This document shows, piece by piece, positions 24,803 to 40,588 of a DNA stretch of 64,000 nucleotides. The stretch is from Tetmemena sp. SeJ-2015 (taxonomy: Eukaryota > Ciliophora > Spirotrichea > Sporadotrichida > Oxytrichidae). Every line of letters begins with the position of its first letter. The first letter of the stretch is position 1. A model generated the notes under the pieces. It made no database searches, had not been told where the DNA came from, and saw nothing but the letters and a program-made list of their open reading frames with translations. The DNA lies in the NCBI GenBank assembly GCA_027382625.1, contig JAJKFJ010021420.1:1-64000 (forward strand), in the 5' to 3' direction. A program made the translations under genes and the position numbers.

Positions 24803-25550
24803 ATGGTAGAAAGATAGAACGAAGCTCATAAGGTTTTAGATATGATTCTCTAAACCTCTGAAAATTAAATCTGTTCTGATTGCTGTATGTATATTTTGAA
24901 GAGTTTAAACTTCTTTATTTAGAGTGCCAAGAATAAAGTGTGTAGTTTGCAAGCATGACTCATGGAATTTTCATCTGCGAGAGCTGTTAACAATATCATG
25001 AGCAAGTGGGAAAAGAGTTCTCGATTGTCCGTCCTATTTCCTCAGATTTTTGGTCGCAAGTACAAATAGATACGCTTCAGTTTGGAGGAAATGAGAAATT
25101 CAAAAACTTCCTTCATTAATATGATATTCAAGACTTCGCAATCCAAGAGAAATATAGAACTCTTGCTTGCAAATTCTATCGTATGAAACTAGAAGCGTTG
25201 AGTAGGCATTTAACTCCAGATATCGAGCCTCCTTCAATCGAAGAAGGTCGAAGAATCATTCTAGATGAGTAGCAGGGTAAAGATATAATATCTCTTTATT
25301 GGTTGTAGATTGGGTGATGGTAAAGACAAAAGAAGGCTAAGTAATTAAGACAGAGGACTTCGTGGGAGATATAGTTTTTCACTAAGATAGAGATGACGAC
25401 TATGAGTACAGAGAGTACATTCAAAATCTTATAGCTTATTTATAGAAATATTGAGGAGATTGTAATATTTAATCCAAGATGGTGGAGGCTTACCTTTAAC
25501 CTATTGTGATCTGATGGGAGGTGTGAATTAGCTGAGTTCCGTAATAGGTC

Positions 25551-25609
<59 letters not shown>

Positions 25610-28600
25610 ATTTACGACACTTACGGTTTCTGCACAATTAAGCGATTTGATTGGCTGGCTGGTTAATAATATTTATTACTTAATATCCGTAATCAAAGTC
25701 ACTATGGCCACCCCGACTGCAAGACAGTCCGAACCCTCCAGCATCCAATTGTATCCACTGCTAGACTGCCTGATTCTTGGGTCTCCCAGGCAAGAGTCCG
25801 ATGACTAACTCTCCTATAGCCAAGGCTCCGAGATCAACGAATCAGAGCAGACACTGAGCCATGCTCTACCCGAACTACCAGAGGATATGTCCCTCTGCAA
25901 GCCACTCCCAAGCTATCCTCCTGGGTATCGACGCTTCTCCGATCTCCCCACACGCGAAGGGTCTGAGGCATCGTGTTCTTTTCCTTGCAGCCAGAGTAAG
26001 GCGACTCCTCTCACCGCTCCCTCAATCGAGGCCTGTCCATCGTTCTCAATTGTGCAGCACAGTCTCCAGCCCCACACCTCCAGGCTCCTCCTAGATGGCG
26101 ACTTGCACTACCAGCGCTTCCTTCAATTCCCGGGCCCCTCCTATGCACTCATCTCGAAGCTTGGCAAGGTCCCGGACCTCGTGAGCATCTTGGAGAAGCA
26201 CGAGGGCTGCCAGCTCCAACCACGCGATGTCGAGCAGGACCTCATGTAACTATCCTCATCAATCGAAGGTCTCCTCGCTCGGCAGGTGGACATGGTCGAG
26301 TCCCTCATAGCCTCAGCGGTCCTCACGTAGTCTCGGCTCTAGCCGCGTAACCTCCTCCTCCCACACCTCTGCTATGGGGAAGTCGAATGTTGCGTCAGGC
26401 GTCCCCAACTGTCCCATATCGTTCAGCGCCGATGCGGGGCGCTCTGCCATGTCAGCCCAGCCGTCCACTCTCACTTGGCTCAGCTCAACGAACTGAGGAG
26501 GAGCCTCATGTTTATCAAGACTAGCCATTGCAGCCTCAACGACAGACTAAGAGGCAGAGCGAGGGTGGAGTCGAGCAAGAGCAAGCCCTACGTATACTCC
26601 AGGAGAGCTCTCCAGATGATAGAGGACGCATCGAAGCATCGCCAGCCTAACTCCCCAAGCTTAAGTGGGCCAGAGGTCATTAGAAGGCAGCGACTGACTG
26701 AAGTCTCGAATAAGGTCTTCCTCCAAGTCATCGATGGAGTGAAAGAGTATCAGCAGTACGTGCATTCTATCGTGGAGACTCAAACCGTCTCTCCTAACTT
26801 TGATGGCCGCAACGCCAAAATCCTAGCCTACACAATGCTTGACGCGCACGAGAGCTTCACCAAGCTAAAGGAGGTGATCAAGAGGAGCAAGAAAGGACTC
26901 AAGGAGGCCCTGTAAGATGAGGATGAGGCTGCGCGCATCCTTCTGCTCCTGAAGTCCATCACTTCTAAGGCAAACGACATCACCAGGCTACGCAGGAGGC
27001 AGTTCTGTATGTCCATGCTGATGCACTACGCACGAGATTACGAGCCGCGCCGCTTCGCTTTCGACCTGGGCGATGTGCTTGGTGGGGTAGACCTCGAATG
27101 CATACCTGCAAGACAGCGAGTCTTCAGGGTTACTCTAAAGGAGGGCGAGTCGGTTGATAGCGATCGAGTGAGGATGGAGAGGCAGTCCCTATACGACTGC
27201 ATTAATCTATCTCACCGAGTAGTAGAAGTTGTGGAAGGCTTCGTTCACCTATTGTGGCAGACGAGCCAGAGGATGCTCTCAACAGAGGGTAGATGGAAGG
27301 CAGTCCTGCATGTGATTGACAAACTCGTGGTGAAGCTGGAGGGCACTGTTCCGTACTACAGAAACAACAAGTTCCTCTACCAAAAAGGAGATGGGAGGAG
27401 CAGGAGAATACGCAACGTTTGGTATGATTTCAAGCTACCAGCTCATACCCAAGGCAAGGTGTCCCTCAGACTCTAAGTTATCCGAGAAGCGATGGAGTAG
27501 ATCAACTACCTGAATAGGAGCACGAGGATGGTGAGCTGCACCTTGGAGCAGAGCATTCGTTTTATCTGGGATAACGCACTGTTCCAAAGAATAGCCGCAC
27601 GAGATAGAGCAGCTGAGAGTCCTTATGAGATCGTGAGAAGAATCGGCGAGGATAAGGGCCTCGAGGATGAGTGCGTTGTGGTATATGCTGGCAATGATGC
27701 AAGACTATTGAGAGGGTTATCACTCGAGTTCTGAATATTCAAACCGAGGCGCAGGAGTACAAAAGGTCACTGACACCTAGAGCTAAAATATAATCACTCG
27801 CATTCAGTCAAGGAAATGCTTCCACAGATCAAACAGATCATAGAGACCGAACAGTTGGTCGTAAAGATGCTCTCGAGCCCACACTGGCTGGATTAGGATG
27901 ACAAGACCAGGCTCCGCGATGGCCTATTAACAATGATGAGCAGAGATCAATATTATGTAGGGCCTCAGGTTGCTCAGAGCCTGGTGGTGCTTCACGAGAG
28001 GCTCGGGAACGAGTACAAAATAATGCAGAGTACTGCTATGGAGCTCCTCTATCTCAAAGACTTGGTGGCCACTATCAATGCGCACCCGATCAATAATTTG
28101 AAGCAGCCAGAGATGGCACAGCAGGCAGTGGTGGACAGACAGCCACAATCTGCAGGGAAGGGTGGCATGCTCAGCCAAGATCAATCGTATGCGCAGTCCA
28201 AAGTTGGGAATCAGGATGTGAGGCAAGCTGAAATATTCCGACAGATTCTCGCAGCCTCAGAGGAGGATCAGGCAGAGGCAGTAGAGAATGAAATGGAAAT
28301 GAGGAACCAGCACCCGCTCTTCATCACAGGCCAGGGCGAACCAAAGGTATTCAAGAAGAGCGAGCTTGAAAAGATCGCTAAGGATGTAGCAGCAGCGAAG
28401 CCCTTTCTTAAAGATGAACCACTCAAGATCGTCCAGACGAGGTTCAACGGCCCCGCGAAGTGGAGCAGCATGGTCCTCTCGTTCAAAGTGCCCACTGGCT
28501 TGAAGGAAGTGCGCTTAGTCAGTATGCTAATCGGCTGGAGGGAGAAGGAGTCAGAGGTGCTTGAGCAAATCGAGAGCAAGGAGATCTACCTGATATTTAA

Positions 28601-31600
28601 GGACCCCAAGGAGGTCAATCGCTTCCTTGATTATCTCGAAGAATTCAGAGGAGGTCATGGAGAAGACGATTCGCTCTGGGAAATCAACAAGCCTCAAGCC
28701 AAAGATGCAGTGAAGAAGAGAGATGTGAAGAAGGCAGAGAAGGAAGCCAAGGAAAATGAAAACGGCTGATAGCGAGTGTGAATATTATATCTAATTAAGC
28801 TCCTTATGATTAATTCACTAACTATTAAACTAACTCCACTCTTACTTATTACATTTATAATACATACGACAACTTATTAGATATGGAACCCTCGAGCAAG
28901 ACCTCCCTGAGCCAAGTGAGTACGTTTATCAAGAACAAGGTGGAGCTGTATGAGGCCACACAGAGAAATGGCTACTTCCTCCCGAAGGCCAAGAGCAAGG
29001 CAGTGACCGAGGAGTACTTGCTCAGCGTGATCAGCGGGAAGGTGTGGTGCGCCAAGTATGACGAGATACGATTGCTGCCCTGCCCTCGGCCTCCCTCGTT
29101 AGAGGTGCTATTCGCGAAGTTAAAGGAGGTCGGTGCGCGCGACAAGAAGATTCTAGGCATGGACGAGCAGCACCTGCCAGATAGAGCTTGGAGCCTGGCG
29201 ATGCTTTCCACATTCAAGCCAGCCGACGAGATCTTCAAGAAAGGCTATGAACCACCAAGTAAAGGCCAAACAGGGCCAGGGTACAAGACAGTGGATCTAC
29301 AGTGGAGTTTCCTCGAAGGATTGCCCAAGTCCAAGGCCAAGGCGAAATCTCAGAGGCTCTCCTTCCTGAACTCGAGCAAGCAGTCCATGAAGCTCCTCCC
29401 CCTCAAGGACCAGGGGCAAAAATTTACGTTTATGGAATAGGAGAAGAAGGCGATGGAGGAGCGGCGGTAGAAGAAGTAGCAGCGGCCAGGCGGGAGGTAG
29501 TTCACTGGGGCAATGTTCGGTAAAGCCGAGGTCAACGTGCGCATGAGTGAGAGCAGCAAGTCCCCACACAAGAAGTGATTCAGACGAGGTGGCCGCGCAG
29601 GCAGTGAATTAGTTACTTGATGTGTGAGTTAGCCAGTTACTTAGTCTTAACGTTATCTTAATCTGCGATGAGCCGCTCCAAGTCAGCGACAAGTATTGCT
29701 TGATCCAGAGAGGAACAGGTCCCGCGAGAGACGACACGGCGGCGCCATTCCTGCTTCAAGACCGCCCAGAGTCGCTCGATTGGGTTGAGGGTGCAGCTGT
29801 AGGGAGGTAGATAGACCAAGGTCTGCTCGCCGATGAAGAGGTCCTTCACCTTTGAGCTCTTGTGGATGCTGAGGTTGTCCATCACGATGATGCTGTTGGG
29901 AGGAACTATCAGCAAAAGTTGTCTCATGAATGAGGTGAAGTGCTCAAGGTTGTTGCTGCCCGAGAGCACGAGGTGGAGGATCAGGCCTCGCTACGAGCTG
30001 ATGGCCCCGATGATTGTAGCAGAGCGGCCTCGGCTGCTAGGTATCGCGACTGACATAGAGCGCTTCAGCCATGCCTTCTTCAAAGTCTGCCATCTGTGGA
30101 AGGTGGACTCGTCGATGTACACGATCTCGCGGCCAGCGTGCATCCACCTCGTGATCGCTATGGAGTAGGCCTGCTATTGCTCTTAGAGCTCGCGCTCCCT
30201 CTGGTCTTTGCGGATGTACCTGTAGGAGCTGGCTCGGTAGGAGACCTCATTGCGACGGAAGAGCTTGGCCAACGTGGCCGGGCAGACAAGAGGGGCCCCG
30301 AAGTGCTCGTGGTAGTACTGAGCGCGCTCCTTCAGGCTCATATGGGCCGTCTCGCTGAGGTGCTTGGCCGTGGTGATGCGCTCCTCGATCGCGTGGGGGA
30401 TTTTTCTCTTTGGGCCTTTCGCACGCCTCCCCTTCTCGTAGATGATGAAGTCGTTGCGGCGCCAACGCTATACGATCATGGCCACAGTGCTCGGCTTGAT
30501 ACCCGTAGCTCTAGCGACTTGGTTGTAGCTCATGTATATGCGCTCATCGTGGCTTAGAGTCCCGTAGCGAAGTAGGATAGCCAAGAGCTACTGATCTAGC
30601 GAGTGGGTCATTCACATCCTGAACTTCGGCAGGACAAACTTCTTCCTTTTGTGTATGTCTGTGGCGCCACTGTAGCTCTCAAGGTATGGTATGAGATTCT
30701 GATTCGGGATGTATCGAAGCGGCCTCTAAACTAATGCGGGGTTGCATCCTGGTTCAAGATATTCGGTGAGGGTCCTCTTGCGTTTGCGTGCATTGCCAGT
30801 GTCTTCCATTATGCTTATTAAACTTGGAAATGAATAATTCGACACTTTTGATTACCACCTCAATATTTCTATAAATAAGCTATTAGGTAGAGTGAGATCG
30901 AACAGCATCAAAATAGGAAAACTATAAAAGATGGAGTGAAAGAATTTTGGGGAAAGACGCAGACATTCAGCAAAGCTGTAAGTATAATTCATAACTCTTA
31001 AAATTTTGGATAGTAAGGTGAGAAGATAAAGTCAAAACTGTAAGAGTCACAAATTGGAGATAAGGTTAAGAAGGGGAATGCAAAAGTCAAAACTTTTTTC
31101 CAAGAAAAAATAGCCAACAAAATTAAGGTAAGTCAACTTCATTGTGTCACAAATTTAGAACAAGGAAGAGGATAAACAATAAAATCCCAAGTAAAATAGC
31201 TAATCTCAAAACTTCGGATAGAAATTCAAATCTGGCTTTCAGAATCTATTCAAAAAGAACAAGAACTAGATTCAATATCAAGAGCAAGCGTTCTAATTGT
31301 TAAGTTTTTTAAGCAGAAATATCCAGATAAAAGGGATATACCGAAGTGACCTTAGATTAGAATGAAAATCCCTACATACCTTCTCACTAAAATAAGTATC
31401 TAACTGATAATGGAGATGTAATAAATGCATAGCTGGCAAAATCAGAGCTTATTTCTGAACTCTATGTTGAAGAAGATCCAATCCCAAATATTGTAGATAC
31501 CTCAAAGCAAGCAGTTGCTTTTGATGCCTAAATTGAATCTAAAGAAATACCTCAAAGAGTTTTGAATCAATAATAAAAAGAAATTCCAGATGATAATTAA

Positions 31601-32077: not shown

Positions 32078-34089
32078 ATGTCGACATAAAAAGTCTCTTA
32101 CATGTTAGTCTAAAAACATTTAAAGAAGTTAACAATACACATTTGTAGGAATTAGATTAACAGGAATTAAGGAGGATAAGATCAGCGTCAGATACCAGTA
32201 GAGAAACTTCGATAAAGCTAGGACAGTTAAATGACTCTTAAGCCTAATATGAATCATTTAAATTACAACCAAAATTCTAAGACTCAAGGAGGAGATACAA
32301 GAGTAAATAACAAGTTTGTTCCTTTATAAAATCCTAACGACCTCAGAGCTTAAAAAAAGATGAGGCCTTAAAGTTCAAGTGATGAGGATGAATTCAGAGA
32401 CTCTTTTATAAATTCACTAGGTAAGTTTTCTTTTAATAATTCTCTTAAGATATTGATGAAAGAGAGCCACTTGGCAGGTCTTCCTAATCATTTTCAAGCA
32501 AATTCAACTCACAAAAGAAACGAGCAACAGACTCTAAGATATAATACGATCAATTATCGCAAATTGAAGAACTCCGATAGACAGATATCTATGATGACAA
32601 CTTTAGTAAAGAGTACAATCTTACTAGGAATTCCAATTTAGTTACAGAAACTAATTTTAACAATCAATATATTTAATTATTTCCAAGCCTCAACATCAGG
32701 TTTTATGCCCTCTAATTCTAAAGCAAATTAATCCAAACTGCTTTAGAGCCAGAGTAAGAACTTCTCTCGCAGTAAATAAGTTGACTCGCCAACCATGTCT
32801 CTGGTTGGATTTAAGAATTCTGATTAAGAGGCCTCTACCTAACTGAAGAAGAATCTATCTCCGTCAATTTTTATTTAGCAGGTGAAGGCCATTTATGATA
32901 GCAAGAGCTTAAACTGGAACATGAAGCAGCAAAACTTTATGAAGTAATCAACTGACATGTCTAAAATAGCTTACACCAAAACTTAAAACTACAATAGAGC
33001 TAGTCAAAATATAAAAAGACCTTCCCCTTAGAAAGAAAGCCAAGACACTACAAAAAATAATAAAGCCACTTTGGGCCAAACTGACAGCACAAGGTTGAGT
33101 GCAAGTGGCTTTAATGGAGGCAGACAGTAAGCTTAAAACCAGGCGCTAGGTTATCTGTCAGAGGGAAGTGTTGACTCTAAGAGCAGACAGCCGAAAGATT
33201 TTAAGAGTGCCTACCAAAAGCTATAAAACTAGATGCTGCAAAAGTACCAAAATGGAAACTACTAGCTGCACACAATGACTAACATTAACAACATGAGTAA
33301 CTACTCCTCTTCTAATAAGCTTATGCTCTCTTACAATTCAATCAAGTCACTTGGGAAGACTGCTAAACTTAATAGTTCTAAAAATGGAGAGTTATTTGAG
33401 AGACTTTACTAGGATAAAGAGAAGTATTTCTAAACAAGGAGCAACATTGTTGATCATAAATTAGAGGAGGAGTTACAAGAGTGTACATTTACTCCTAATC
33501 CCCATAAGAGTAAAGAGAGATAGAAGAGGAGCTTTGGATAATTCTATCAAGAGTAAATTGAGGCCAAATAAAAGTCAATTAGCAGAATGAATGAGATGAG
33601 ACAAAATAAATTTGATAAAGAAATGAACTAGCTCAGAAGCTTCAGCTAAAGCCCAGAGGGTGATAAAAGTCTTAAAATAAGGGAGCTTAGTCCTATTCAA
33701 CTCTCATAAAAGCTCTACTAAGAAGGATTAGAGAAAATGAAGCATACAAATTATGTATGCACAACTAATGATATTGGAAAGCTTGATAAGAATTACACCT
33801 TCAAGCCAAAAATTAGTCAAGCATCTTCCTAAATTGCCACAAAAAAGAATCTTAATAGGAGTCCTGAGGTTTTGATAGAGCAGCTATTCAATGAAAAACT
33901 TAAAGTACTCAAATCATTTGACCCACAAAGAATAGCTAACTAAGTTCAAAGCCTAAGATTAGCGAGACAAATTACAAATTGCTCGAGAAACAAATTGAGA
34001 AGTAAATATTTGATGCTCTAAATAGGATCACCTTTGATCAAGATCAAGGTCTAGATTTTTAGATCCAAGTAATGAATTTTTGCTAATGA
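32078..34089 (+). CDS. CTFxP-motif protein (cytoskeletal-type, ciliate family)
   Basis: ATG 32078 to TGA 34087-34089. A disordered Gln/Asn/Ser-rich N-terminal half is followed by a block typical of a ciliate family with ECTFxP motifs: LEEELQECTFTPNPHKSKER, IGKLDKNYTFKPKISQA, and a helical EVLIEQLFNEKLKVLKSFDP. Members are long coiled-coil and low-complexity proteins presumed to be cytoskeletal; function is not established. The frame changes at about 32420-32690 and again near 33940, implying an IES, an intron or indels; after the last shift the C-terminus reads YKLLEKQIEKQIFDALNRI. The neighbouring gene at 34956 carries the same motif, so the two may be diverged relatives. Confidence 0.65.
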
Positions 34090-34111
34090 TGTTGACTTAT
34101 AAATTTTAAAA

Positions 34112-34358
34112 ATGGATTATTTCAGGAAAATTGTGAGTGGAAAGCGAAGAAGATATCAAGATGGGAATTATGACTTGGACATATCATATATCACTCCGAG
34201 AATAATTGCTATGTCTTATCCTGGCTAAGGCTATGTTGAGACTACTTATCGTAATCCAGGTTAAATGGTATGTGCTTATCTAAAAAGATTAACACAAATA
34301 AATTTCGAGTTTTGAAAATATTGATCGGTAATTTCAATAGGTAGCTCGGTTTCTAAGA
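34112..34358 (+). CDS. PTEN-like phosphatase, germline segment 1 (N-terminus)
   Basis: Starts at ATG 34112 with [20 protein letters not shown] and then [20 protein letters not shown], colinear with the PTEN N-terminus including its phosphoinositide-binding basic patch. A 73-nt insert (34268-34340), readable as a GT-AG intron or as an IES with pointer GGTA, is followed by VARFLR. The segment ends in the 15-base pointer GCTCGGTTTCTAAGA (34344-34358), which occurs again on the minus strand at 38340-38326, where the next part of the gene begins. PTEN enzymes dephosphorylate PI(3,4,5)P3 at the plasma membrane. Confidence 0.9.
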
Positions 34359-34609
34359 TTGTAAGATTTCAAATTACTGGATATTTAACTGTAGTGAAAA
34401 TGGATACTATATAAATTATCATTCTCCGCCTCTTCACTTGTTATTCAGTTTACCTCTATATCTATCTGAAAGGTTAGCAGATATTTTACTTGATGAATAC
34501 TTTTCTTAAGAAAGTAAATTTGAAATTTAATTACCTTTCACAATCTAAAATATTAAAGCATTTAATTACTTATAACTAAATATAAATTGATAGAAAGAAG
34601 GCTATTTCA
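34359..34609. other. Spacer between PTEN segments 1 and 3
   Basis: AT-rich sequence between two germline segments of the scrambled gene, expected to be eliminated. A stretch near 34375-34460 translates to a vaguely PTEN-like string, but it lacks the catalytic motif and is not needed once the segments are ordered by pointers. Confidence 0.6.
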
Positions 34610-34643
34610 AGATGACGCACTAAGGTATTATGGTTGGAAGCGA
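34610..34643 (+). CDS. PTEN-like phosphatase, germline segment 3 (34 nt)
   Basis: A 34-base coding segment bounded by pointer AGATGAC (34610-34616, shared with minus-strand 38015-38009) and pointer GGAAGCGA (34636-34643, shared with minus-strand 37996-37989). It encodes DDALRYYGWKR, matching the EALDFYGEVR region after the phosphatase loop of PTEN. Without it, segments 2 and 4 could not be joined with correct length and frame. Confidence 0.88.
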
Positions 34644-34832
34644 GAGTATAGTCATAAGTTGCACCAGTGGTTAAGAAACTGAAAGCAGTCATCCTCTCAA
34701 ATCCAAATGAAGTTTGATAATTGAATTAAGTAAGAATGTAAATTCCACTAAATATTGTTATATAGATATAACCAAGCGAGGGAGGATCAATTACTTATTT
34801 ATTCGATGAGGGATCTTTTAATCATAATTTTA

Positions 34833-34905
34833 TCAGAGCCTATAATATGTGGGGACATGCACTTTGTAGTACAAAACAGAGGAGTGATGTACGACAGCCA
34901 GCTTT
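34833..34905 (+). CDS. PTEN-like phosphatase, germline segment 5 (C2 domain)
   Basis: A 73-base segment bounded by pointer TCAGA (34833-34837, shared with minus-strand 37766-37762) and pointer GCCAGCTTT (34897-34905, shared with minus-strand 37688-37680). It encodes EPIICGDMHFVVQNRGVMYD, aligned with the PLPVCGDIKVEFF strand of the PTEN C2 domain. The surrounding open frame from 34755 to 35039 is largely spacer. Confidence 0.87.
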
Positions 34906-34955
34906 CCTTCCTCATAATAAGATTTGGATACCCAAGCGAAAAGGAAGGACTTAAA

Positions 34956-37191
34956 ATGCAAAATGTTTCAGATGAGGATCGAGCCACCATGCTATCTTGT
35001 GAACTTCTAATTGATATAATATTTACATCCAAGAGATAAGAGCTTAGTTAAGAGCCAAACTCTGCCTCGATAGTATTCTAAAAATGATGACCTCACTTTA
35101 GAGGAAGAAGAAAAGAAAGACTATTCTCAAATTTAAGATTTAAAGAGTAATCTTTTATTATGAATAAATAGGAATAGTTTGATGGCTTTGACTATGAAGA
35201 TGGATAAATATGAGTGGGATTGGAGATAGATCTGCCTTTGGGAAGAGCTGGTAGACCAGTTACGACTAACTTAGCAAATATAAAGCAAAAGCATATCATC
35301 GATCCTCCTACACAAACAGAATCATAAACTAATCTTAAAAATTTAAATTGTTCCTGAAGTTCAGAAAATGTTTAAGCAATAAAAAATATGCCACTCAAGG
35401 AGAAACAAAATTAGAAGATTTGAGAGAGCCAGATAGGTGGGATGCTTGACATAATATCAATTTGGAATGATAAGAATACAAATCAAATATATCTTAATTT
35501 ACCATAATCAGCGTCAACATAATCTTATGAAAAGATTTATAAATACAATAAGTAAGTCTCTTAAACAAAATCTAATGATGATTTAGTCTTTTTAATATTT
35601 TTATAAAACTTGAATGATTATATTGAAATTAGATCTAGATTTGTAGAACTTGAAAGAATTCTTGATTTAACTCACTATGCTAGAAGAGGCGACGATGAGA
35701 AGATAAAAGCAGTTTATAATCTAATTGGTAATGGTAACCCACTTGGCTTTGACGAGTTGAAGTTAATTATCTGTGGAATTGAAGGAGTGAGTCTGCCCAA
35801 TCTATTGAATGAAATGAGTCTCTATTTTTAAAACTAGGGTGAGTCCTACACTCTCCCTCTCAACAACAGCTCTAACTTCAACAAGTTCAAGAGTATAATG
35901 AGAGAATTTAAGATCACGAAACAGTAAATAGACTATGAATCCAAGCTTAGGAAGATAGCTGAAGTTACTCTCTCCCCCAAGAGCGACTTCAGGCCGAAGT
36001 TATCCAAACGATCTGAGTAGATAGACAGGAGGTCCAGGCAGAAGTCACAGTCCAAACTAGTCAACGATAAATCTCTTACACATGTTGAGAGTCGTAGTGA
36101 GTTTAGCACCTCAACTCACAAGCCAACCAACACTGACAGAGTTGAGGAACTACTGGAGAAGAGCAAGAAATACAAGTCCTCCAAGCTTCAAAAGATAGAG
36201 GAGAAACTCAAGAGTGAACTTGATGGATGCACTTTTCTATTAGATATTTTTTCAACCTGCTGTAAAGAAGAATTATCAATTCACCTCCCCTAAGAATCTT
36301 GATAGGCATGGCTTACCTTAAACAGAAGAGAAGAAGCAAATATTTGACAATCTGCATTCTCTGGCTCAGTCTTCCAAGAAATCTATAAATATTTTGTAAT
36401 CTAAGAGAGATAAGTCCCAAGACGAGTTTGACTACGAGAAGAGTAGAGATGAGTGTACATTTGCTCCCAAAATTTTAAAGAATAAGTTGTACGATCATCA
36501 GCCATCTAAACTCCAGCTCAACAAGCCAAATGAAATCCAAAAGCCTTCTTTTCAAATCTTATCTATTTTTTAAATAGTTCTTAGAACAAACCATAATCCA
36601 GCCAGTAACTAAATCAAAATGGAGATTAGGAAAGCTTGAAGAAATAAGATATTAAAAAGGACTAAGTTTCTAAATTAAAAGTCACATAACCACCTAAGCT
36701 TTAGAGAAATCATAATTTTAAGTTTTGAAACGAAGTAGAGTCTGGAGGAAAGCGACTCTCTTCCAACGTACAGTAAGTAACTCTGAATCCTCTAAATTAA
36801 CCTCCGCAAGGGCTTATCATATCTGATTAAAAGCGTTCTGATATAATAAAGCGCAATCTTATCAACGTCCAAGGATAAATGCAAAATGATGAATCAGGTC
36901 AGGGATAGATAATTTATTTTATATATTTAAATAATTTTAGCTGCAACAATAAGCACCTCTTTTGTATTTGGAAGTAAATATTTCAGAAGGATGCAGGCAA
37001 GATTGATGGTATTTGATAATGACTCCTACGAAGAAGTAGTAGATGTATTCGCAGACTATTATCAAATAGGAGAACTAAAGAAACTCAGACTCCTAGAAAT
37101 TGTGAGAATGCAACTAGCCAAAATTCTACAAAACATTGGCGAAGCAATTGATGAAGAGGAAGAGTCAAATGTTAGTAGAGAATACAACTGA
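34956..37191 (+). CDS. Second CTFxP-motif protein, nested inside the PTEN locus
   Basis: Runs from ATG 34956 (MQNVSDEDRATMLS; start uncertain) to TGA 37189-37191. In order: an acidic N-terminus, LPLGRAGRPVTTNLANIKQK, IGNGNPLGFDELKLIICGI at about 35730, a disordered Ser/Lys region, ELDGCTFQPAVKKNYQF, RDECTFAPKIL, and a C-terminal block MVFDNDSYEEVVDVFADYYQ followed by an acidic helix. The CTFxP motifs and final block match a ciliate family of likely cytoskeletal proteins. A 16-nt IES interrupts the first CTFxP motif. Frame changes near 35085, 35150, 35590 and 36560-36960 suggest more IESs or introns. The gene lies wholly between the two halves of the scrambled PTEN-like gene. Confidence 0.65.
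36233..36253 (+). other. IES, 16 nt, pointer TTTTC
   Basis: TTTTC is repeated 16 nt apart. Deletion joins ELDGCTF to QPAVKKNYQF, restoring the family CTFxP motif; uncut, the frame shifts. Confidence 0.87.
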
Positions 37192-37383
37192 ATATATATT
37201 TGATAGTCAAAATTTTACATCTTGATAGTTTATTTGATTGATCTCTTAAATGTTTTTACAATCTCCAATCCCATTTAATCCTGTAAGCAAACTGTTCCTC
37301 TTTACCTTTCTAGAAGTTATGAATTAGCTAAATCTTCATAGCTTTCCTTAATATATCTTGGATTAACTTTATAGAGACTGCTA

Positions 37384-37688
37384 TCAATAATAACTTGAGG
37401 ATGATTGATCTGGGTATCCATGCTTTTGCATAACCATTTGGATTGAGCGCCAGCTGATAATATCTTCTTATAGAATTTCAGCGCACCTGTCACAATATTC
37501 CTCTAATCTCAAAGTCCTGGGATCCTTGCATTACTAGCAATAGTCTTCGAAGACTAACTTTATCAGAAATCCATCAGAGACCTTCTTATCCTTTTTGAAG
37601 GAATCTGGACTGACAAAGTTTTTAGTAAACACAAGAGAATTCTAAATTGGGACAAAAGCTGAGTTGAATGTTATTCGGCAAAGCTGGC
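37384..37688 (-). CDS. PTEN-like phosphatase, germline segment 6 (C-terminus)
   Basis: Begins at the pointer GCCAGCTTT (minus-strand 37688-37680) and reads CRITFNSAFVPIQNSLVF, then KDKKVSDGFLIKLVFEDY, the last strands of a PTEN C2 domain. It continues with CQQCKDPRTLRLEEYCDRC, a CxxC...CxxC pattern that could bind zinc, and stops at TGA 37384-37386. The C2 part binds membrane lipids in PTEN; the cysteine tail is not a usual PTEN feature. A second open frame toward 37200 leaves the last exon slightly uncertain. Confidence 0.82.
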
Positions 37689-37761
37689 TAATAAATGAAT
37701 GCAAGATAATCATTAATCTTATGTATTCGTTCTTACTTAATAACCTTAAGGCCTTATGCTG

Positions 37762-37996
37762 TCTGAATATTTGCTCGTAAAGGAGAGAGTTTCTTTTTGG
37801 TCTGAGTGGATTCGAACTATATCTAGATAGAATTTGTTCTTGGCATATTCGTTGTTCTCTGACTTTGGTAAGTTTGAGAGGAAATAACTTATGATTGGTG
37901 GTGCATTAACGTATTTATTGTAGATGCCCTCAAAGTAGTAGATATAGCGTAGTTGACAGGGCTGGCTTACTCCTATCCCAGAGGAGAATCGCTTCC
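37762..37996 (-). CDS. PTEN-like phosphatase, germline segment 4
   Basis: Starts at pointer GGAAGCGA (minus-strand 37996-37989), reads FSSGIGVSQPCQLRYIYYFE (compare GVTIPSQRRYVYYY in PTEN), enters the C2 domain with NNEYAKNKFYLDIVRIHSDQ, and ends at pointer TCAGA (37766-37762). The spacer to segment 2 is only 12 nt (37997-38008); the spacer to segment 6 is 73 nt. Confidence 0.9.
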
Positions 37997-38008
37997 TCAA
38001 TTACAGAA

Positions 38009-38340
38009 GTCATCTGTGTTATTAACGAAACCACAAAACAGTAAAACTATATAACTAAGTATAAAAGTATTGTTAATTATAAGAGAGAAACTATTCCAGT
38101 TCCAGTCCTGCCTTTTCCTGACATGCAGTGAACTGCTATCACATTTTTATCGTTCTCTAAGAAAATTAATCCTACTTTTAGATAGTTATGCATTTCCCTC
38201 ACAAAACTGAATAATCTATTTGGAGCATGATGATCCTTCCAATTGAAATCACTCACTCTCCCGTCAAAGATGTTGTGATCATAGTTCTTTTCACTACTCA
38301 TATCTTAATTTGAGCCATGCTTCTCTCTTAGAAACCGAGC
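38009..38340 (-). CDS. PTEN-like phosphatase, germline segment 2 (catalytic)
   Basis: Starts at the 15-base pointer shared with 34344-34358 and reads EKHGSNQDMSSEKNYDHNIF, DHHAPNRLFSFVREMHNYL, then the phosphatase loop HCMSGKGRTG, which has the CX5R signature with catalytic Cys and Arg. A 44-nt IES (38044-38094, pointer ATAGTTT) follows; once removed, the frame runs TGTGIVLLFCGFVNNTDD and ends at pointer AGATGAC (38015-38009). The segment has no N-terminus of its own: only 65 nt separate it from the end of the TRAP-alpha gene. Confidence 0.92.
38044..38094 (-). other. IES, 44 nt, pointer ATAGTTT
   Basis: ATAGTTT is repeated 44 nt apart on the minus strand, inside PTEN segment 2. Removing one copy with the insert gives GIVLLFCGFVNN in frame with the catalytic loop and with segment 3. 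Confidence 0.9.
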
Positions 38341-38405: not shown

Positions 38406-39327
38406 TCAGAATGCAAGAATAAGTTCCTTAAGCTGTGCAAGTACTGGGATCTTAGAATCCTTGCCACTAGTCTTCTTCCTATTCTCCTCCTTTGTGAATC
38501 TCTGTTCTACTTTAACGTAAATAGTGAACACAAACAGGAAGGTAATGAGTCCTGTTAAGATCAAAGAGAAGAGTGCTTGAATTCCTACTTCCTCCTCTCC
38601 CTTAATAACCTCAATATAGCCTTCAAAGACTGTATTGGAATACTCGTACTACCTATCTGCATAGAATATTGCTATTTACAGTTTATAGTTCTTAGCTGCG
38701 ATTGTGTGGAAGGGAGAGAACTCGTAAGCAAGGGAAACAGTTTCAGAAGGGTTGATTCTCTGGAACCCAAGGCTTTCAATTGTGAAGTTCTGCACATACT
38801 TGGGCTCGCCACTTAATAAATCTCACAATTAATCTTGGATAATTACATAGATACAAACATATATAACTGCTTTCATCAATGAGTGCGCCTGCAATAAAAT
38901 GTAAGAGATAAATATCTTTGATCTCAAGGGGCATGATTCCATGATTGTAAAATCCAATGAGCACTCTCTAAGTCTCTCCCTGCTTGAGAGACATCTCTAG
39001 CAAGTTCTTTGAGGCTTCCTTGCCAAAGTACTCTGGGAAAACTACTGATATCGATGCAAATGCACTTGGAGTGCTCATTTGGGAGAGTAGATGAACTTTA
39101 GGGTCTAATTCTCCTCTTCTCTTAAAAGCTGAGCCAAACTGTGGTGCGCCAGGCATACCTTATCCACTCGCCATAAAGTCTGGATTACCTCTTAGGATTT
39201 CTTCAGGAATTCCAAACTCAGGATTGATATCCAAGTTGTCTGCTGGCTTGAAAGTTTCTTCATCATCATTTGCCTGTAGAGAGACTACTGATAGAGTAAT
39301 CAAGAGTAGTTTAGAAATAGCTTTCAT
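38406..39327 (-). CDS. SSR1: Translocon-associated protein alpha (TRAP-alpha/SSR1)
   Basis: ATG 39325-39327 to TGA 38406-38408. An N-terminal signal peptide (MKAISKLLLITLSVVSLQA) is followed by an acidic stretch, a lumenal domain with ASISVVFPEYFGKEASKNLL and QRVLIGFYNHGIMPLEIKDI, and near the C-terminus a membrane helix (LILTGLITFLFVFTIYV) with a basic cytosolic tail. This order matches TRAP-alpha, a subunit of the ER translocon complex that assists insertion of secretory proteins. One frame change occurs near 38780-38850, where an IES, intron or indel sits. It reads away from the neighbouring DDRGK1 gene, another ER membrane protein. Confidence 0.8.
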
Positions 39328-39432
39328 TTTTATAAATTATATTTTTTGTACCAATCAGACTATAAGTGAGTTGGAGGATTATGAATTCTTGTATTTTGGG
39401 TAATTATTATAGCATTTTAACTAGGAATAGAA

Positions 39433-40588
39433 ATGTCTTTTTTCATTTTCATCTCACTGAGTTTTATCTCAGTAGCCATCCTTTACTACTTCTTCTTTAT
39501 AGTAAACCTTTTATCTATATAATGAAGCCAAATAGAAAAGCGATACAAATAACAACAATCAAGATGTTTTTATTAATTTTATTATGGAGAGCATAAGAAG
39601 AACGATGATCTAGGTGGAAGATAGCCAGAGCCATTTGAGGAAGAGAAAGTGGTTTAGCCATAAGGAAGAGGGGGCAGACTCAACTAGAGACTCAGAAGAC
39701 GACAAAATTATTATATGATTTAAATGAGAGGGATTCTGAAGATGAAGATGCAGATGGCCAAGAAACCCAGCTGTAGACATAAGCATAGACCCAACTTTCT
39801 TCTTATATTAACTTGAAGCACTTGAGGCTCAGATGAATGACCCAGGTAACCACTATTTCAAGTCTATTGTAAATCTAAATTAATGAGTAGATGCCAAACT
39901 GTCGAAGAAGGAGATGCTCAAACTCCAAAAGAAGATGGAGAAGGCCAAGATGCAGGAGGGTATGAGACTACAGAGAGAGCAAGAACTCAAGAGAAGAGAA
40001 GAGCTCGAACAGAAAGAAGAGCAACTAGAAGCGAGAAGGAAGCACGAGCAGGAGTTGAAAGATGAGGAGGAAAGATAGAGGAAGGAAGAACTAGAGAAAA
40101 AGGAGTAGGAAGAGTACAATAAGTGGGCTGATATGTTCTAAGTGGAGGAAGAGGGTACTCTCTAGGAAGATGGAGATGAGTACTAGAACAGACTATAACA
40201 GTTCATAGAATACATCGAATTGAGGAAGGTAGTGCTTTTCGAGGACTTGGCTTCTGAGTTTGGACTAACTACTAAGGAAGTTGTGGATAGGATTCAAAGT
40301 TTGATGGAGTCGCAAAGACTACTTGGCATCACTGACGACAGAGGTAAATTCATCCACATCACTCAGCCAGAGTTTGACTCAGTAACTAGATACATCAAAT
40401 CTAAGGGCAGAGTCAACAAGACAGATCTGCTTGCCGAGTGCAACAGACTTGTTAGGATGCAGCCAAGAGCAGAGGACAAACTCAAGATCCAAAACGAATA
40501 AAAGTAATTGCTCGATAAGGTTGAGAAAAAGTTCGCTGTCGAAGAGGAAGTATAATCAATACTCAATTTAATTTAAGTAAAAGCATGA
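39433..40588 (+). CDS. DDRGK1: DDRGK1 (UFBP1), UFMylation adaptor of the ER
   Basis: ATG 39433 begins a membrane helix (SLSFISVAILYYFFFIV) as in DDRGK1, which is anchored to the ER with its C-terminus in the cytosol. After an AT-rich interruption (about 39505-39590, IES or intron) come an acidic linker, a long Lys/Glu/Arg coiled coil (about 39900-40120), and the conserved C-terminal winged-helix: FIEYIELRKVVLFEDLASEF, LLGITDDRGKFIHI and KSKGRVNKTDLLAECNRL. The ITDDRGK motif names the family. It recruits the UFL1 ligase to the ER surface. Stop TGA 40586-40588. In-frame TAG/TAA Gln codons are frequent. Confidence 0.9.

Follow-up and report, generated by a model that had tools for sequence, protein, structure and literature searches.

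A PTEN-like gene of a likely hypotrich germline, predicted to lie in twelve strand-alternating segments

The PTEN-like locus and its surroundings

The 64-kb window, the whole stretch of DNA analysed here, contains a predicted PTEN-like phosphatase gene with the layout of the PTEN family, namely an HCxxGxxR loop (HCMSGKGRTG) followed by a PTEN-type C2 domain. In the best map, the gene is divided into 12 segments. Specifically, the odd segments lie on the + strand (34112-34905) and the even segments lie inverted on the − strand (38340-37384), in the strict order 1 3 5 7 9 11 and then, inverted, 12 10 8 6 4 2 (Table 1). Between the 12 segments are 11 pointers of, in order, 15, 8, 10, 4, 11, 7, 8, 7, 10, 12 and 10 bp. 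All 11 pointer words (4–15 bp) match exactly, including CTCC, which is not distinctive. In some segments, merely 12–14 bases lie outside the pointers, and segment 12 was trimmed to end at its own stop codon.

The map also holds one intron and four small unscrambled IESs. The A+T content is higher in the intervening pieces (0.773 over 313 nt) than in the segments (0.639). The 73-nt piece in segment 1 is called an intron because a GT..AG intron precedes the same valine in a paralogue (L029) and a matching acceptor is present in another (L034; by eye). It may instead be an IES, since a GGTA repeat is compatible with this cut too.

The odd half of the PTEN-like gene sits inside a second + strand gene, whose second half lies between the PTEN halves. 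The sole relative found for this gene, P0160 (990 residues), has its first half matched at 32381-34129 and its second at 35649-37188, both on the + strand; its record number presumably points to Oxytricha. Near-identical words at 34047-34063 and 35631-35647 both contain the 9-mer TCTAGATTT. The frame across this 9-mer is off by eye, so that TCTAGATTT is only a candidate junction of the second gene.

Upstream lies a mobile element with a GC content of 0.41–0.56, versus about 0.32 around it, and 29-bp inverted ends that are 97% complementary. It carries a DDE_3 transposase frame, with at least 121 matches in the assembly, and we take the element to resemble the telomere-bearing elements of hypotrichs. 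Across the assembly, the C4A4 pattern occurs 67 times, and 11 of these matches fall in a contig's first 9 bases. Since the pattern is unchanged by reversal, a backwards control is uninformative for this count. Downstream, a − strand gene adjoins the even half. Its reading frames recall, we presume, translocon-associated protein alpha, and its piece 38776-39351 has no match in Pfam. Further on is a DDRGK1 gene in a single open stretch (PF09756, E 3.2e-53), whose best named relative, among the best 120 of 320 matches, is from Stylonychia lemnae (70% identical). An Rfam scan of the whole window gave no match. TAA and TAG are read as Gln in the genes here.

Table 1. Predicted features of the PTEN-like locus and its neighbourhood
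Feature	Position	Strand	Content	Evidence
Mobile element	25428-30886			composition, inverted ends
Transposase frame in mobile element	29580-30611	−	DDE_3
Second interleaved gene	32381-34063 and 35634-37188	+		match to P0160
Segment 1	34112..34358	+	start codon, N-terminus; pointer GCTCGGTTTCTAAGA (15 bp) at end	exact word, profile path
Intron in segment 1	34268..34340	+	73 nt, GTATGT..AATAG	in-frame TGAs if uncut
Segment 2	38306..38340	−	pointer TCAAATTA (8 bp) at end	profile path, exact word, word chain
Segment 3	34369..34400	+	NYWIFNC; pointer GTAGTGAAAA (10 bp) at end	relatives' proteins, profile path, exact word, word chain
Segment 4	38222..38297	−	pointer CTCC (4 bp) at end, weakest junction	relatives' proteins, exact word
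Segment 5	34424..34451	+	PLHLLF; pointer TTATTCAGTTT (11 bp) at end	profile gain 12.1 bits, word chain
Segment 6	38009..38214	−	catalytic loop HCMSGKGRTG; pointer AGATGAC (7 bp) at end	profile path, exact word, word chain
Unscrambled IES in segment 6	38157..38174	−	18 nt, repeat AG	profile path, profile score
Unscrambled IES in segment 6	38042..38079	−	38 nt, repeat TTA	profile path, profile score
Segment 7	34610..34643	+	pointer GGAAGCGA (8 bp) at end	profile path, exact word, word chain
Segment 8	37899..37996	−	pointer TGCACCA (7 bp) at end	profile path, exact word
Segment 9	34660..34701	+	VVKKLKAVI; pointer TCCTCTCAAA (10 bp) at end	relatives' proteins, profile path, exact word, word chain
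Segment 10	37730..37882	−	pointer ATTAAGTAAGAA (12 bp) at end, in place of TCAGA	exact word, profile score, word chain
Segment 11	34725..34905	+	start of C2 core; pointer AGCCAGCTTT (10 bp) at end	profile path, exact word, word chain
Unscrambled IES in segment 11	34732..34773	+	42 nt, repeat AAG	profile gain 10.8 bits; not picked by profile path
Unscrambled IES in segment 11	34813..34831	+	19 nt, repeat ATC	profile score; profile path cut same place with repeat TTTTA
Segment 12	37384..37689	−	remaining C2 domain, C-terminus, TGA stop	exact word, profile path, open frame
Interval between odd and even halves	34906..37383	.	second half of another + strand gene
Gene adjoining even half	38406-39354	−		reading frames
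DDRGK1 gene	39887-40588	+	single open stretch	PF09756

Evidence for the joined gene

Joined as predicted, the segments give one frame that stays open over 381 codons and has a single TGA at its end. The frame is open only once the intron and the four small IESs are removed; the cuts that yield the 381 codons, of 73, 18, 38, 42 and 19 nt, lie at short direct repeats. The map predicts a coding sequence of 1146 nt (stop included, intron removed), which would encode SNYWIFNC, APPLHLLFSF, APVVKKLKAVILS and YQVSEGGSITYLFDEG. An early join resembles PTEN (E 5.8e-30 against the solved PTEN; 39 relatives found). In PTEN_C2, the first join covers positions 47-133 with 32.5 bits, above the cut-off, and the 12-segment product covers positions 3-133 of 133 with 38.0 bits (cut-off 27.1).

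A profile of 16 relatives was run against both strands; the alignment could jump, at a penalty, wherever two positions are preceded by the same word. The best path scores 639.6 with strand switches, versus 349.9 without them. Unaided, this path recovers eight of the 11 pointers and three of the five same-strand cuts of the final map. It skips segment 5, misses the segment 4 pointer CTCC, takes another route through a poorly conserved linker in the region of segment 10, and has one switch (GTTAT) and two cuts (AA and TTTTA) that are absent from the final map. The final map, which was picked with the relatives in view, reaches 446.1 bits when scored on a profile of the 16 relatives only. On the same scale, the two-strand path scores 438.4 bits, the map with the 42 nt retained 435.3 bits, and the map without segment 5 434.0 bits.

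The second line of evidence is blind to protein. Ordered words of at least 7 bp common to + 34112-34905 and the reverse complement of 37384-38340 form a chain with a score of 50.5, versus a mean of 24.7 and a maximum of 38.0 for dinucleotide shuffles (0 of 1000 as high). As controls, the direct orientation scores 25.5, and 279 random pairs from the window score at most 45.5. Pointers account for nine of the 13 words of the chain, and among opposite-strand words of at least 9 bp, eight of 14 are not pointers. CTCC is outside the chain because it is shorter than the word length used, while TGCACCA is pushed out by an adjoining 9-mer, TCATAAGTT. Ten of the 11 pointers are picked up by the profile path, the word chain or both, and CTCC is placed solely by homology. 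A scrambled gene may thus be mapped from germline DNA alone, by means of relatives' proteins and a protein-blind test of opposite-strand words.

The 9-mer TCATAAGTT lies in unused DNA of both strands beside the TGCACCA junction, at 34652-34660 (+) and 37894-37886 (−). It is perhaps an older pointer, or a chance match.

Formation, origin and alternative readings

The locus is probably a PTEN-like gene of a likely hypotrich germline, with 12 predicted strand-alternating segments that would be rejoined at 11 pointers, the even ones inverted. The exact words, their order, the alternation of strands and the one open PTEN frame after joining are seen directly in the sequence. We infer that the DNA is germline (micronuclear) because its genes are interrupted, a transposon is present and the gene itself is scrambled. 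During development of the somatic nucleus, the segments would be joined by recombination at the pointers, with the even segments flipped at joining and the exact cut points falling inside the pointer words. The DNA between segments would be discarded, and the PTEN product would likewise lose the interval between the halves. A signalling phosphatase would then rely on faultless DNA joining.

The arrangement may have originated from an inverted duplicate of the gene, with two copies decaying in alternation and the working sequence weaving between them. This corresponds to the duplication-and-decay model of Gao et al. 2015, as described in a portion of PMC9797194. After an inverted duplication, a skipped stretch should be as long as the segment used from the other strand and should initially resemble it in sequence. 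The lengths of IESs and exchanged segments are correlated in the 10 pairs (Spearman 0.93; 0 of 5000 permutations), with the IES shorter in all 10. Net of inner IESs, the correlation is 0.91 (3 of 10000 permutations) and the IES is shorter in nine of the 10 pairs. Sequence similarity between IES and segment was not found in the 10 pairs (sum z −0.70, equalled or exceeded by 761 of 1000 shuffles; lowest p for any pair 0.149), and the argument for duplication is therefore one of lengths.

Three candidate relics of a second copy were considered. The + gaps do not form a degenerate PTEN copy: parts of them are used segments by comparison with the relatives P0006 and P0018, and the remainder has no similarity. 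One match to PTEN on the + strand after segment 11 was rejected, with 79 of 200 shuffles as good and a DNA match to segment 12 at p 0.976. No relic of segment 1 was found upstream of segment 2 on the − strand: the p value is 0.645 (0.802 when the 73 nt are cut), and 168 of 200 shuffles do as well.

The odds seem even that what we see is the late-stage remnant of an inverted duplication, in which two complete PTEN copies would have decayed in turn to alternate scraps and the pointers would be the last identical words of the two. The count of strand switches would then be the number of steps of a one-way ratchet. In the part of Feng et al. 2022 (PMC9797194) that treats locus age, young odd/even loci have a strong length correlation together with similarity, and both are weaker in old ones. 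If duplication and decay applies, the PTEN locus would be an old locus; older loci may have lost their similarity.

Stepwise exchange of segments and IESs at short repeats, with real scrambling and no inverted gene duplicate, is a possible origin that we hold only tentatively; it is the model of Chang et al. 2005, as cited in a portion of PMC9797194. It is consistent with the IESs having no similarity to the segments exchanged for them, but the length correlation, with or without the inner IESs, is not expected from it. There are thus two origins to weigh, duplication and decay, with which the lengths agree, and swaps at short repeats, with which the loss of similarity agrees. The locus is convenient for tests of odd/even origin, since it has eleven inversion junctions and the genome also contains one-strand paralogues.

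The paralogues are known from 10 other PTEN-like stretches taken from the assembly, eight of which have two or more matches. In all eight, the matches are in order on one strand, although the eight are not all independent, L029 and L030 being 97.5% and 95.4% identical to L031. The one exception is an extra partial match 6 kb away at L034. L029, L030 and L031 (contigs C722, C4482 and C3356) are near-copies of one PTEN-like gene and could be alleles, recent duplicates or redundant contigs. A second copy of the PTEN locus studied here was not found in the 146.2-Mb assembly (5213 contigs), in which the window opens contig C2499 and where other matches are at most 68% identical.

The existence of other PTEN-like loci would fit a dead locus made of two distinct PTEN paralogues, each partly decayed, that face opposite ways and undergo no rearrangement, and the matching words could then be leftovers of homology. 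We regard this as improbable. The two halves are complementary with almost no overlap, and the joined frame is open throughout its 381 codons. Decaying paralogues should also keep some PTEN signal in the DNA that is not used, but the profile detects none in six unused stretches.

Very improbable is a gene of six segments only, joined via TCAGA at the fourth junction, as in the original prediction. Its general architecture, a PTEN-like gene with odd segments ordered on the + strand and even segments inverted on the − strand, is well supported by the profile and the word chain. The six segments are all present exactly in the sequence, as are the common words of 15, 7, 8, 5 and 9 bp between them, and the product is recognisably PTEN. 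Other than that, six segments are too coarse. Joining was said to keep one frame, but in the raw join every one of the three frames is interrupted by TGAs, and one frame needs the 73-nt cut in segment 1 and further cuts in the second of the six segments. The frame is also kept by a 26-nt GT..AG intron at that second segment's end, but this fits the relatives worse than the 38-nt cut.

The six-segment product is also without blocks present in relatives. When P0006 and P0018 were compared with both strands, the absent blocks were matched in the + gaps, each flanked by words that recur at the matching site of the − strand. The intervals originally drawn as gaps contain three + segments (3, 5 and 9 of the 12-segment map), and segments 10 and 11 extend beyond the limits drawn for them, displacing the TCAGA junction. 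The fourth word is exact like the other four, but it is probably a chance match, and the path via ATTAAGTAAGAA gains 17.5 bits over it (428.6 bits with TCAGA). Against the profile of relatives only, our rendering of six segments, already aided by two introns, reaches 346.1 bits, 100 bits below the 12-segment map. With shuffling confined to the six-segment gaps on both strands, the real score of 609.0 (shuffle mean 579.4, sd 2.9, maximum 586.0) was reached by 0 of 60 shuffles, so that the gaps carry signal. Half of the segments can escape notice when a map is drawn by eye.

Judged from the assembled sequence, an artefact from a fold-back or chimeric read is scarcely credible: fold-back chimeras give identical inverted copies, whereas the halves here share short words only, and eleven ordered alternations are impossible from one false join.

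Comparison with known systems

The joined product shares the N-terminal motif, the HCxxGKGRTG loop and the C2 domain with ciliate PTENs (P0001 of Moneuplotes crassus; P0006, P0018 and P0020 of Halteria grandinella). It is 42% identical to P0001 over 372 columns and 50% identical to P0006 over 246. The loop of the solved PTEN is HCKAGKGRTG, compared with HCMSGKGRTG in the predicted joined product. Among the papers listed in a literature search, none treats a scrambled ciliate PTEN gene.

The actin I gene of Stylonychia lemnae, in an extract of PMC2394655, likewise has inverted segments, and its pointers of 3–19 bp are in the same size range. Two of its 10 segments are inverted, whereas six of 12 are inverted, in alternation, at the PTEN locus. 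The odd/even loci in the cited portion of Feng et al. 2022 (PMC9797194) are similar in that IES lengths track the exchanged segments. They differ in that young loci there keep similarity, whereas the PTEN locus is without any.

The closest counterparts are the return loci of Oxytricha trifallax. In the portion of Braun et al. 2018 (PMC5940158) concerned with such patterns, an odd/even locus with an inverted even half is described by the return word 1..n n..1, combinations of two such operations account for the topology of 96% of the scrambled chromosomes in Oxytricha, and interleaved loci are described. The original prediction was thus correct that inverted odd/even scrambling is already known in spirotrichs; the locus is therefore a good example rather than a surprise, and what it adds to the field is an example, not a principle. 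Unlike those loci, it concerns another gene, probably of another species, and was read from germline DNA alone. Like them, it has ordered odd segments, inverted and reversed even segments, pointers at the joints and an interleaved gene. The PTEN locus is, on its predicted map, a further case of the canonical odd/even return pattern known from Oxytricha.
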